Positions 44,903-48,597 of a stretch of 64,000 nt of DNA are shown here, one piece after another. Numbering within the stretch: the stretch's first letter is position 1; every line of letters starts with the position of its first letter. The DNA comes from an uncultured Sphingomonas sp. (GTDB lineage Bacteria > Pseudomonadota > Alphaproteobacteria > Sphingomonadales > Sphingomonadaceae): assembly GCA_913775315.1 (NCBI GenBank), contig CAJYIX010000037.1, positions 1-64,000 of the forward strand. Reading direction: 5' to 3'. The notes under the pieces were generated by a model. That model was not told the origin of the DNA. It made no database searches and saw only the letters and a program-made list of their open reading frames with translations. Both the position numbers and the translations under genes were made by a program.

Positions 44903-45224
44903 GTGAAGGGAGGCTCGAACATCATATCGCGGGTCTAGGGCGCTCGCCCCGTCGCGGCAACGGCGGCGCGCGCTTGCGTTTCTGGCGCGCACGCGCTAGG
45001 CGCGCGACCGTCCGACGAGTGCATGCTCGGCGGCGGAGCAGCCATGCGGCATGTCCGACCGGCCCCGTTCCCTTTCGTATTCGCGATCGAGAACCTTCGC
45101 CCCCCGCTCATGCGCTCGCGCGGATGCCGTAGCGGCATTCGGCCGCCACGGCATTCTGGCCCAAAGACCGCCGGATCCAACCGGCTGGCCGGAAACCGTC
45201 AAAACTGAGGATCAACTCCAACCC
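44903..45224. other. rpsA upstream region without a gene
   Basis: About 320 bp between the methyltransferase start and rpsA. No supported gene is seen; a cytidylate kinase gene (cmk), often found before rpsA, is missing. It must hold divergent promoters. TGAGGA at 45206-45211 is the likely but distant ribosome site for rpsA, and the A-rich stretch before it contrasts with the GC-rich rest. No S1 autoregulatory structure was worked out. Confidence 0.4.
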
Positions 45225-46937
45225 ATGGCTACTAACCCCACCCGCGACGATTTCGCCGCGATGCTCGACGACATGTTCGGCGGTGCCGACAGCTTCGAGG
45301 GCCGTGTCGTCCACGGCACCGTCACCGCGATCGAGAACGACCTTGCCGTCATCGACGTCGGCCTGAAGAGCGAAGGCCGCGTGCCGCTGCGCGAGTTCGC
45401 CGCGCCGGGCCAGAAGGCCGAGCTCAAGGTCGGTGACGAAGTCGAGGTCTATGTCGACCGCGTCGAGAACGCCAATGGCGAAGCGATGCTGTCGCGCGAC
45501 CGCGCCCGCCGCGAAGCCGCCTGGGACAAGCTCGAGCTCGAGTTCAGCCAGGGCAACCGCGTCGAGGGCGTGATCTTCGGCCGCGTCAAGGGCGGCTTCA
45601 CCGTCGACCTGTCGGGCGCCGTCGCGTTCCTGCCGGGTTCGCAGGTCGACATCCGCCCCGTGCGCGACGTCACCCCGCTGATGGACCTGCCCCAGCCTTT
45701 CCAGATCCTGAAGATGGACCGCAAGCGCGGCAACATCGTCGTGTCGCGCCGCGCCGTCCTCGAAGAGACGCGCGCCGAGCAGCGTTCGGGCCTGATCCAG
45801 AGCCTGGCCGAGGGTCAGATCATCGACGGCGTCGTCAAGAACATCACCGACTACGGTGCGTTCGTCGACCTCGGCGGCATCGACGGCCTGCTCCACGTCA
45901 CCGACCTCAGCTACAAGCGCGTCGGCCACCCGTCGGAGATGCTGAACATCGGCGACACGGTGAAGGTGCAGATCATCCGCATCAACCGCGACACGCAGCG
46001 CATCAGCCTCGGCATGAAGCAGCTCGAGAGCGATCCGTGGGATGGCGCGTCGAGCAAGTATCCGGTCGGTGCGAAGCTGTCGGGCCGCGTCACGAACATC
46101 ACCGAATATGGTGCGTTCGTCGAGCTGGAGCCGGGCATCGAGGGCCTCGTCCACGTCAGCGAAATGTCGTGGACCAAGAAGAACGTCCATCCGGGCAAGA
46201 TCGTCTCGACCTCGCAGGAAGTCGAAGTCGTCGTGCTCGAGGTCGACGAGGACAAGCGCCGCATCAGCCTCGGCCTCAAGCAGGCGCAGCAGAACCCGTG
46301 GGAGCGCTTCGCAGAGGCGCATCCGGTCGGCACCGAGGTCGAGGGCGAAGTCAAGAACGCCACCGAGTTCGGCCTGTTCATCGGCCTGGACGGCGACGTC
46401 GACGGCATGGTCCACATGTCCGACATCGCCTGGGGCATCTCGGGCGAGGACGCGCTGGCGCTCCACCGCAAGGGTGAGGTCGTCAAGGCGATCGTCCTGG
46501 CGGTCGAGGCCGACAAGGAGCGCATCAGCCTCGGCATGAAGCAGCTTGAGCGCGGCGCCCCGGTTGCGGGCGGTGCGGCGGCTGCCGGCGGCGCGGGCCG
46601 CGTGGGCAAGAACGAGATCGTTACCGTGACGGTGCTCGAAGTCCGCGACGCGGGCCTCGAGGTCCAGACCGGGGACGACGGCGCCACCGGCTTCATCAAG
46701 CGTACCGACCTTGGCCGCGACCGCGACGAGCAGCGCCCGGAGCGCTTCCAGGTCGGCCAGAAGTTCGATGCGATGGTGACCGGCTTCGACCGTTCGAAGA
46801 AGCCCACCTTCTCGATCAAGGCGATGCAGATCGCCGAAGAGAAGCAGGCGGTCGCGCAGTACGGCTCGTCCGACTCGGGCGCGTCGCTCGGCGACATTCT
46901 CGGCGAGGCGTTGAAGGCGCGCGGCGAGAAGAACTAA
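45225..46937 (+). CDS. rpsA: 30S ribosomal protein S1
   Basis: A 570-residue protein with six S1/OB RNA-binding repeats, which brings mRNA to the small subunit. Repeats begin near VVHGTVTAIENDLAVIDVG, RVEGVIFGRVKGGFTVDL, IIDGVVKNITDYGAFVDLGG, LSGRVTNITEYGAFVELEPG, EVEGEVKNATEFGLFIGLDG and VTVTVLEVRDAGLEVQT. An Ala/Gly linker separates the fifth and sixth. Start MATNPTRDDFAAMLDDMF at 45225. It is followed by a strong hairpin and then ihfB, the usual order in proteobacteria. Confidence 0.97.
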   Translation: MATNPTRDDFAAMLDDMFGGADSFEGRVVHGTVTAIENDLAVIDVGLKSEGRVPLREFAAPGQKAELKVGDEVEVYVDRVENANGEAMLSRDRARREAAWDKLELEFSQGNRVEGVIFGRVKGGFTVDLSGAVAFLPGSQVDIRPVRDVTPLMDLPQPFQILKMDRKRGNIVVSRRAVLEETRAEQRSGLIQSLAEGQIIDGVVKNITDYGAFVDLGGIDGLLHVTDLSYKRVGHPSEMLNIGDTVKVQIIRINRDTQRISLGMKQLESDPWDGASSKYPVGAKLSGRVTNITEYGAFVELEPGIEGLVHVSEMSWTKKNVHPGKIVSTSQEVEVVVLEVDEDKRRISLGLKQAQQNPWERFAEAHPVGTEVEGEVKNATEFGLFIGLDGDVDGMVHMSDIAWGISGEDALALHRKGEVVKAIVLAVEADKERISLGMKQLERGAPVAGGAAAAGGAGRVGKNEIVTVTVLEVRDAGLEVQTGDDGATGFIKRTDLGRDRDEQRPERFQVGQKFDAMVTGFDRSKKPTFSIKAMQIAEEKQAVAQYGSSDSGASLGDILGEALKARGEKN

Positions 46938-47149: not shown

Positions 47150-47434
47150 ATGATACGTTCCGAACTCGTCCAGCTACTGGTCCGCGACAATCCGGATCTT
47201 GCGGTCCGTGACGTCGAGCGCATCGTCAACATCTTCTTCGACCAGATCACCGCGCGCCTGTCGGAGGATGGCCGCGTCGAGCTGCGCGGTTTTGGCGCCT
47301 TCTCGACCCGCGCACGCGATGCCCGCACCGGCCGCAACCCGCGCACGGGCGAGGTCGTGCCGGTGGATGCCAAGCGCGTCCCCTATTTCAAGCCCGGCAA
47401 GGAAATGCGCCAGCGCCTGAACGTCGGCGAATAG
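47150..47434 (+). CDS. ihfB: Integration host factor subunit beta
   Basis: A 94-residue DNA-bending protein of the HU/IHF family: [21 protein letters not shown] helical base, [23 protein letters not shown], and the DNA-clamping arm with [11 protein letters not shown] and the conserved proline region, then [14 protein letters not shown]. It pairs with IhfA (not in this window). Placement after rpsA is typical and confirms the beta subunit. The ~150 bp between the rpsA hairpin and the ATG should contain its promoter. Confidence 0.96.
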
Positions 47435-47476: not shown

Positions 47477-47797
47477 GCGGGCGTGGCGGAATGGTAGACG
47501 CAACGGACTTGACGCGAAAATTGAGTGCGCGCCGGGAAACCGGCGACGTAGAACCGCTCAAATTCGGGGAACCCTGTCAGATGGCGATCCCGAGCCAAGC
47601 CTGGCGGCCCAAGCTGCCGGGAAGGTGTAGAGACTAGACGGGCGGCGCCTAAACCCATCACGGGCATGGCGAAGGGATAGTCCAGACCCCGAACGCTTGC
47701 GGCCCCTCGGGGCCGGGCGGCGGCGAAAGCCGTGGCGGGTACGAAAATCCGGTGGGCCGAACGGCCCGTGGGGGTTCGAGTCCCCCGGCCCGCACCA
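47477..47797 (+). tRNA. tRNA-Leu(UAA) split by a group I intron
   Basis: Exon 1 is 47477-47510 and exon 2 is 47744-47797; the mature tRNA is 88 nt with encoded CCA. The acceptor begins GCGGGCG and ends GCCCGC-A-CCA. The anticodon arm after splicing is ACGGA-CTTAAAA-TCCGG, giving anticodon UAA. The long variable arm GGGCC-GAAC-GGCCC is typical of leucine tRNA. The T arm is GGGGG-TTCGAGT-CCCCC. The outermost anticodon-stem pair (A.G) and the last acceptor pair are mismatched. The intron interrupts the anticodon after U34, the same place as the classic cyanobacterial and plastid intron. Confidence 0.92.
47511..47743 (+). ncRNA. Group I intron (IC3-like) in tRNA-Leu(UAA)
   Basis: A 233-nt self-splicing RNA. 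P1 is formed by ACTTGA (47507-47512) and TTGAGT (47521-47526), putting the splice-site U47510 opposite G47523, the required U.G wobble. Core elements are visible in order: P (AATTCGGGGAA, from 47561), Q (GATCCCGAGCCAAGC, 47586-47600), R (GTGTAGAGACTAGACGG, from 47625) and S (AAGGGATAGTCCAGA, 47672-47686). P7 pairs GACT in R with AGTC in S. The last intron base is G (47743), the omega-G. It is too short to encode a homing endonuclease and none is present. Confidence 0.9.
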
Positions 47798-47835: not shown

Positions 47836-48597
47836 ATGACCGCCGAGATCGCGCTTGCAAGCTTTGTCGAGAAAGCACTCGCGCAAACCCCACGACCGCT
47901 CGTTGTTGGCCTGTGCGGCGCACAGGGCAGCGGCAAATCGACCCTCACCGAGGCCCTTGCGCAAAAATTCTCGGGTACGGCGATCCTGTCGATCGACGAC
48001 CTCTATCTCCCTCAAGAAGAACGGCAGCGACTGGCCCGCGACGTCCATCCGCTCTTCGCCACGCGCGGGGTGCCGGGGACGCATGACGTTCCACTCGGCA
48101 TAGCGACGCTAAACGCGCTTCGCGAAGGACGACAGGTCCGACTGCCCCGCTTCGACAAGTCGCATGACGACCGGCTGCCCGAGCGCGATTGGCCGCTATC
48201 CCCGCCCCGCCCGCGGCTCGTAGTCTTCGAGGGCTGGTGCGTCGGGGCACGGCCGATCCACGGCGACTTGCGCCCGCCGATCAATCGACTGGAGCGCGAC
48301 GAGGACCCGGACGCGACATGGCGGCGCACCTGGAACGCCGCGCTCGCTGCCGACCTTCCACCCCTGTTTGCGGCGATCGACAAGCTGGCGCTGCTCGCCG
48401 CACCGTCATGGGACGTGGTGCTGGGGTGGCGCCGCGAGAAGGAGGCGGCTTTGAAGCCAGGCCCCATCCGCGTGGAGGAAGCAAGCTTGAGCCGCTTCGT
48501 CAGCCACTACGAGCGTCTGACGCGGCACATCCTGAACGAGATGACCGAACGGGCGGATCTCGTCATTCCGCTTGCCGAAGATCGCTCTATTCGATGA
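47836..48597 (+). CDS. P-loop kinase, D-glycerate 3-kinase-like
   Basis: A 253-residue kinase with Walker A GAQGSGKST (about residues 28-36), SIDDLYLPQEERQRLA, the diagnostic FATRGVPGTHDVPLG, LPRFDKSHDDRLP and FEGWCVGARP. This is the pattern of the YggC/plant GLYK group, which phosphorylates glycerate; the precise substrate is inferred. It lies 38 bp after the tRNA-Leu gene and converges on rimM with an 11-nt overlap. Confidence 0.82.
   Translation: MTAEIALASFVEKALAQTPRPLVVGLCGAQGSGKSTLTEALAQKFSGTAILSIDDLYLPQEERQRLARDVHPLFATRGVPGTHDVPLGIATLNALREGRQVRLPRFDKSHDDRLPERDWPLSPPRPRLVVFEGWCVGARPIHGDLRPPINRLERDEDPDATWRRTWNAALAADLPPLFAAIDKLALLAAPSWDVVLGWRREKEAALKPGPIRVEEASLSRFVSHYERLTRHILNEMTERADLVIPLAEDRSIR

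Follow-up and report, generated by a model that had tools for sequence, protein, structure and literature searches.

A group I intron in the tRNA-Leu(UAA) gene of an uncultured Sphingomonas and the common exon type of its carriers

The gene for tRNA-Leu(UAA) in a 64,000-nt stretch of DNA from an uncultured Sphingomonas sp. (the whole of which is called the window below) contains a group I intron of 233 nt, inserted directly behind U34, and we put at roughly 90% the probability that this identification and the ability of the intron to splice hold together. It is an unexceptional example of an established kind of intron, whose presence beyond the cyanobacteria has received too little notice. What is new is that its carriers have a common exon haplotype at the conserved rpsA-ihfB locus, while a host gene tree calls for nine changes of intron presence. 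The existence of intron-bearing and intronless alleles at one locus of one genus allows the spread of an endonuclease-free ribozyme to be addressed directly. Introns of this class turn up repeatedly in Alphaproteobacteria and on many phage contigs. Two points are worth following up, the copies on phages and the probable movement of the ribozyme together with its exons.

Introns in proteobacterial tRNA genes are exemplified by those in tRNA-Ile(CAU) of Azoarcus and tRNA-Arg(CCU) of Agrobacterium. These introns are small, like the one described here, but they differ from it in the tRNA and in the splice site. According to the available portions of the respective papers, tRNA introns occur in alpha- and beta-proteobacteria (PMC4033280) and in the tRNA-Ile2 genes of Acidovorax and Burkholderia (PMC8450103). 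A published gammaproteobacterial intron resides in the same tRNA as ours and is likewise proteobacterial, but the paper left its structure and type undetermined. In the open-access literature (titles and the beginnings of abstracts) we found no report of tRNA-Leu introns in Sphingomonas.

The interrupted gene and its junctions

The tRNA gene and its neighbours are arranged as follows:

45219-46937, + strand: rpsA, 30S ribosomal protein S1, upstream (NCBIfam NF004955, 1000 bits, cut-off 878; start codon assumed)
47150-47434, + strand: ihfB, integration host factor beta, 42 bases before the tRNA (TIGR00988 and NF001222, above cut-offs)
47477-47510, + strand: 5' exon of tRNA-Leu(UAA), final base U34 (spliced form tRNA-Leu(taa), 88 nt)
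47511-47743, + strand: group I intron, 233 nt, terminal G at 47743 (Rfam RF00028, 40.5 bits; our model R1, 257.2 bits)
47744-47797, + strand: 3' exon of tRNA-Leu(UAA), CCA encoded (from the spliced reconstruction)
47836-48597, + strand: P-loop kinase-like gene, downstream (PF00485, 27.6 bits, cut-off 22)

Excision of 47511-47743 leaves a complete 88-nt tRNA-Leu(UAA) with the anticodon at position 34, just as the original prediction, made from the sequence alone, had proposed. Among 120 junction pairs tried by excision around both intron ends, two read as Leu(UAA); the second, 47509/47745, is shifted by one base at each end and gives an 86-nt form with the anticodon at 33. The last base of the intron is a G (47743), the junction itself being set by the tRNA fold, and the reconstruction and the intronless relatives together place the junction exactly. 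An endonuclease gene would be too large for an intron of 233 nt, so the claim that none is encoded there holds as well.

On the unedited window, the sole find of ARAGORN at this place is a broken 'tRNA-???' at 47708-47797; in intron mode the program proposes a tRNA-Ser(GGA) with 231 nt removed, which we rejected. tRNAscan-SE 2.0 is, according to its authors, not designed for detecting such introns (available portion of PMC8450103), and since ARAGORN misses the gene, lists of tRNA genes will often lack it.

By analogy with the group I family, from which the self-splicing chemistry and its efficiency are presumed, the pre-tRNA would be transcribed with its anticodon loop interrupted after U34, and the intron would fold as a small group I ribozyme in which the guide GAGU base-pairs with ACUU at the end of the exon. 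The first attack, after U34, would come from a guanosine lodged in P7, and the second, after the terminal G at 47743, from the freed U34, joining the exons into the 88-nt tRNA-Leu(UAA).

The matches to TIGR00988/NF001222 and PF00485 bear out the placement of the gene between ihfB and a kinase-like gene; the latter reaches no NCBIfam cut-off. The context had also been described as non-mobile. This is true of the locus itself; plasmids and phages, however, carry such genes too.

Fold and family assignment

The fold was studied in an alignment of 19 distinct same-genus introns (A1), comprising helices P1 to P9 with P7 as a pseudoknot, and in a broad set collected with a covariance model (R1), which was built from A1 without the P7 pairs and matched all 100 sources given, yielding 101 rows, 99 of them distinct. 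An earlier, motif-based extraction of the core had lost 62 of 296 rows, including all 11 cyanobacterial rows used later, and was replaced by the covariance-model alignment (A2). The helices, all on the + strand, are:

47507-47526: P1, exon ACUU (47507-47510) with guide GAGU (47523-47526); U.G in 19/19 genus and 95/99 broad rows
47528-47548: P2, 47528-47535 with 47540-47548; both-side changes in 6/8 pairs
47554-47645: P3, 47554-47559 with 47640-47645; second pair C-G in 4 rows including the window, U-A in 15/19
47564-47593: P4, 47564-47569 with 47588-47593; genus and broad alignments
inside 47564-47593: P5, 47573-47574 with 47583-47584; no P5abc extension
47600-47621: P6, 47600-47605 with 47616-47621; both-side changes in 4/6 pairs
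47630-47683: P7 (guanosine site; pseudoknot with P3), 47630-47636 with 47678-47683; invariant in the genus
47646-47671: P8, 47646-47649 with 47668-47671; inner helix 47654-47656 with 47662-47664
47686-47740: P9.0, 47686-47689 with 47737-47740; both-side changes
P9a: 47695-47698 with 47715-47718; both-side changes
P9b, with a GAAA loop: 47720-47724 with 47729-47733; both-side changes

In the genus alignment 97.4% of 1097 cells pair and 20 of the 58 pairs exhibit changes on both sides, while none of 500 shuffles was as high on any of five measures; shifting the partners by one to three columns, as a control, left 30-43% paired. P4, P5 and P7 are invariant within the genus and hence uninformative there. 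The second pair of P8 is G-C in 5 rows, including the window, and A-U in 14/19, and the window copy has the rarer form of the compensated pairs in P2, P3, P8 and P9.0. Among the 99 distinct rows of the broad set both-side changes were found in 44/58 pairs, with the P7 pseudoknot included; that alignment was fitted to R1, so its counts lean towards the structure, those of P7 less so, as it stands outside the model. The last pair of P7 is A-U in 84 rows of the broad set, as in the window, C-G in 12 rows, which appear to be mainly cyanobacterial, and G-C in two. The fold from P3 to P9, with the P3/P7 pseudoknot, is backed by covariation and two controls, and the U.G pair of P1, P7 and the terminal G, all of which had been read from the sequence in the original prediction, are present.

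A match to the Rfam family Intron_gpI (RF00028) covers 47501-47701 and model positions 1-253 (40.5 bits, E 7.1e-9 in a search of 651 bases). The score lies below the gathering score of the family, 50 bits, which is a curated threshold and not a molecular property; at gathering scores, Rfam has no match anywhere in the whole window. The same family scores above 50 bits in 3 of 21 same-genus introns, and in a search of the window's own genome at E up to 10 the intron is its single match. R1 gives 257.2 bits (positions 1-247) for the window intron, whose row belongs to the training set of that model. Two other families with matches here were rejected: tRNA-Sec on the same bases (23.8 bits, gathering score 47) and LOOT RNA (RF03000) on 47646-47750 (25.4 bits, gathering score 46.4). 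The first hairpin of LOOT RNA coincides with P8 of the intron, and LOOT RNA and small tRNA introns possibly have a motif in common.

Group I introns of tRNA genes are placed in subgroup IC3. The window intron lacks the P5abc extension, its P5 consisting of two pairs and an 8-nt loop, in agreement with the absence of P5a-d from IC3 (available portion of PMC11835236).

Occurrence in bacteria, phages and plasmids

Within the genus, 21 of 295 genomes, the window's own included, have a group I match (E <= 0.01), and all 21 introns interrupt tRNA-Leu(UAA) at the same site. In a sample of the class, 35/385 genomes match, again counting our own; loci were taken from 29 of the 34 others, five with weak matches being left out. 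Fifteen of these 29 loci are tRNA-Leu(UAA) genes cut after 34 (including L215, perhaps a contamination), ten have a different tRNA or junction (Lys, Arg(CCU), Thr and some that occur once each) and four are ambiguous. A copy in an alphaproteobacterium had been regarded as out of place, but these samples speak against it, with tRNA-Leu(UAA) introns in 21/295 genomes of the genus and, to the extent that the loci were read, 15 of 384 other genomes of the class.

A scan of genome contigs with a 20-base core returned at least 119 stretches, and one of viral contigs with a narrower form of the core at least 120; in both cases the numbers are counts and not frequencies. A first classification of the loci by trial excision, in which Leu(UAA) was called when within 2.5 points of the best score, was ambiguous, since displaced junctions scored as well as the true one or better. 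The counts given here therefore come from a second pass guided by the model, while the genus alignment and the exon analysis use first-pass junctions, which for the 21 genus loci equal the reading by eye.

The second pass covered 80 of the at least 119 genome loci, with one row dropped because its match was shorter than 170 bases. Out of 80 model-matched rows drawn from those stretches, 52 are tRNA-Leu(UAA) and 14 ambiguous; the 52 comprise 31 from Alphaproteobacteria, 11 from cyanobacteria, 3 from other Pseudomonadota, 2 from Betaproteobacteria, 3 acidobacterial ones, and one each from Gammaproteobacteria and Bacteroidia. Among the taxa with such introns are Caulobacter, Bradyrhizobium, Rhodobacteraceae and Acidobacteriota. 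Betaproteobacterial introns were found in tRNAs with the anticodon CAU, taken for Ile2; rows read as CAU and cut after 36 score 87-96 bits with R1, against 160-261 for the alphaproteobacterial Leu rows. The gammaproteobacterial isolate Carnimonas nigrificans has its tRNA-Leu(UAA) intron (L271) near uvrC-like and phosphatidyltransferase genes, and this intron groups weakly (100/31) with alphaproteobacterial ones. On another genome contig (L249) two or three intron cores lie within about 0.5-1.3 kb, on opposite strands.

The corresponding pass over viral contigs took 80 of the at least 120 loci and gave 83 model-matched rows, four rows with matches shorter than 170 bases being dropped; 52/83 are tRNA-Leu(UAA) cut after 34, 8 are other tRNAs and 23 are ambiguous. 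Two of the contigs, L131 and L142, are densely packed tRNA arrays, in which 22 and 30 tRNAs, respectively, are intact over the part examined, and homing endonucleases are encoded on L131 and L155. L113 carries a tail fibre protein and L097 a UvsX-like recombinase. Cyanophages such as S-TIM5 have tRNA-Leu genes with no interruption that match the L113 exons at 93-94% identity; on sequence comparison these genes represent a natural empty site for the L113 intron. Named examples are Agrobacterium phage Atu_ph07, with a 278-nt intron in tRNA-Leu(UAA), and Gordonia phage Daredevil, with an intron in tRNA-Lys(UUU). In five viral loci (L132, L151, L158, L180, L199) two or three intron cores lie within about 0.5-1.3 kb, and part of the L113 intron, used as query, matches at 74% a stretch of Pelagibacter phage HTVC120P (H26) that lies under a capsid gene annotation.

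As of 2014, all observed phage group I introns resided in protein-coding genes (available portion of the review PMC3984707), and the phage copies found here, located in tRNA genes, are unlike those known to it. In 2019 introns were reported in tRNAs of Lak phages, which are phage tRNA genes too; the portion of that paper available (PMC6784885) names Tyr and Thr and does not mention group I. No report of group I introns in phage tRNA-Leu was found in the open-access literature, at the level of titles and abstract beginnings.

Introns in tRNA-Leu(UAA) were found on a conjugative Bradyrhizobium plasmid and on a Mycetohabitans megaplasmid. In addition, a portion of the intron has matches of 60-80% in 1281 plasmid records, most of them from Escherichia, Klebsiella or Salmonella; among the matches listed, those of E. 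coli cover intron positions 7-185 at about 79%. In one of them, E. coli plasmid pB4-L (L241), the intron-like stretch adjoins tmrB and aac(3)-II, and the trial-excision script gave tRNA-Leu(UAA) among other readings.

Intron tree, exon haplotype and mode of spread

The intron tree comprises 101 introns and 213 columns. Its 100 sources are 15 of the 21 genus loci (near-copies left out), 14 of the 29 class loci, 2 plasmids, 51 of the at least 119 genome stretches and 18 of the at least 120 viral ones, with some non-Leu introns kept. Support is below 80 for 49 of 96 inner branches, bootstrap values had yet to converge and some branches were flagged as long, which makes the branching order within the large set described below uncertain. 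The window intron falls with three other rows (100/97) into a sphingomonad group of 17 rows (88/93), which lies inside a set of 80 rows (99/97) made up of introns from Proteobacteria, phages and a few other bacteria. Its nearest relative is the intron of G316, equal in the columns compared to that of Sphingomonas yantingensis DSM 27244, which has 93% identity to the window intron over 212 columns; this places the window in the genus Sphingomonas. The same group (88/93) unites 14 of the 15 same-genus introns in the tree with Sphingobium; the exception, that of carrier L033, clusters instead with L231 (90/94), which comes from a different family of the class. Two introns from Acidobacteriota adjoin the sphingomonads (20-row set, 87/88) and have the sphingomonad exon type; both come from metagenome bins, in which a binning error is possible, and for L309 the Pfam names of the neighbours leave the owner of the contig undecided.

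The tRNA lies within 600 bases after ihfB, with rpsA upstream, in 19/21 carriers and 44/54 intronless loci. These 54 are a non-random sample, having matched the initial query or a tRNA pattern (among the matches listed), and two of them belong to other genera; the pattern matches tRNA-Leu(CAA) as well, so its tally of 260/295 is not a count of empty sites, and matches with the UAA anticodon were used alone. On a host tree of 63 rows, built from two short sequences, ihfB and part of rpsA (19/60 inner branches below 80), intron presence needs nine changes, at least five of which are forced by the starred branches, and is nevertheless far more clustered than shuffled labels (0/500 as low). Within the window clade, which comprises five carriers, the intron and host trees agree, L041,(L051,(L001,L050)), and there the intron is vertically inherited.

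The exons of the carriers are strikingly uniform. The haplotype GCGGGCG (acceptor), CGGA (anticodon stem) and GGGGG (T stem) is present in 19/21 carriers, the remaining two being one base off, but in only 4/54 intronless genes. For 12 of the 19 carriers in the tree, the exons are 17-24% from the nearest intronless relative but 6-10% (median) from more distant carriers. For the other seven, the window clade included, the nearest intronless relative is L423, which has the same exon type and similar distances, so that there the intron alone was gained or lost. In five independent pairs on starred branches, exon type changed in step with the intron in four, against it in none, and did not differ in one (p 0.125).

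The likely reading of these patterns is a gene replacement in which the intron travelled along with its exons, the independent events being few (p 0.125). The whole tRNA-Leu(UAA) gene, exons and intron, would replace the resident allele beside ihfB via homologous recombination, and the intron, having no mobility gene, would be a passenger of the tRNA gene, sometimes precisely lost. We give about even odds to such passenger spread within the genus. The original prediction had offered ancient inheritance or lateral transfer into the same site, which is too simple: inheritance in the window clade is vertical, and across the genus the unit seems to have been exchanged. The association may also reflect a selective tie between exon type and intron, although P1 needs only ACUU. 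More tentatively, and with the odds somewhat against it, intron-bearing tRNA-Leu(UAA) genes may be a travelling unit, carried by phage tRNA arrays and conjugative plasmids and taking the place of resident genes at the native locus across species, classes and phyla. If so, the sphingomonad-type genes in Acidobacteriota would be a cross-phylum case, and the site common with cyanobacteria would point to one old, repeatedly circulated element.

Passenger spread has to be weighed against movement of the intron alone, inserted many times into resident tRNA-Leu genes, e.g. by reverse splicing. Patchy presence at one conserved locus, the lack of a homing gene and the grouping of the L033 intron with that of another family would all fit, but such insertions should leave resident exons around the intron, while the exon type common to carriers is rare among the intronless genes read, and we regard this explanation as unlikely. 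A single ancestral intron-bearing gene followed by many losses, with the exon type ancestral and the intronless alleles replaced or drifted, fares slightly better, yet we still doubt it. It would accommodate the one moderately supported group formed by 14/15 same-genus introns with Sphingobium, as well as L006 and L423, which look like precise losses (or gains of the intron alone); on the other hand, it needs many losses, most of them with exon changes in several stems, and leaves the likeness of carrier exons across distant hosts to be reconciled with the 17-24% difference of 12/19 carriers from their nearest intronless relatives.

Two further explanations concern the origin and the state of the window copy rather than its spread in the genus, and both appear very improbable. 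Recent lateral acquisition of the intron, at the same tRNA site, from a cyanobacterial or plastid donor was suggested by the position and anticodon, and the coincidence is real: the introns of both lineages have the same tRNA, core and U34/A35 site, the latter shared with all 11 cyanobacterial introns analysed. These 11, however, form with L215 a distant set (100/100) on a branch of length 1.37, in a tree that includes no plastid intron, while the window copy lies among sphingomonads. L215, from class genome G396 (contamination 5), does join the cyanobacteria, yet on a long AT-rich branch; this tRNA-Leu intron has 25% GC and may be plastid or other contamination. As to the state of the gene, a dead tRNA with a decayed intron could be suspected from two mismatches in the mature form that the original prediction did not mention, G7.G66 (also in L049 and L050) and A27.G43 (also in L049, L050 and L051), and from the rarity of UUA, which makes up 4/1587 leucine codons in 43 ORFs picked by script. 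However, the mismatches are common to sister species and hence maintained, and the R1 score of 257 bits lies within the range of 246-276 of 15 genus rows, all of them training rows. Nor was a second UAA gene found in the draft assembly, which has 39 tRNA genes over the cut-off, with Leu CAA, CAG, UAG and GAG intact, but whose tRNA set is incomplete (no Cys, no Ile); likewise, a pattern search revealed no intact UAA gene in 14/21 same-genus carriers among the matches listed. With demand for UUA this low, an intron in tRNA-Leu(UAA) may be tolerable.
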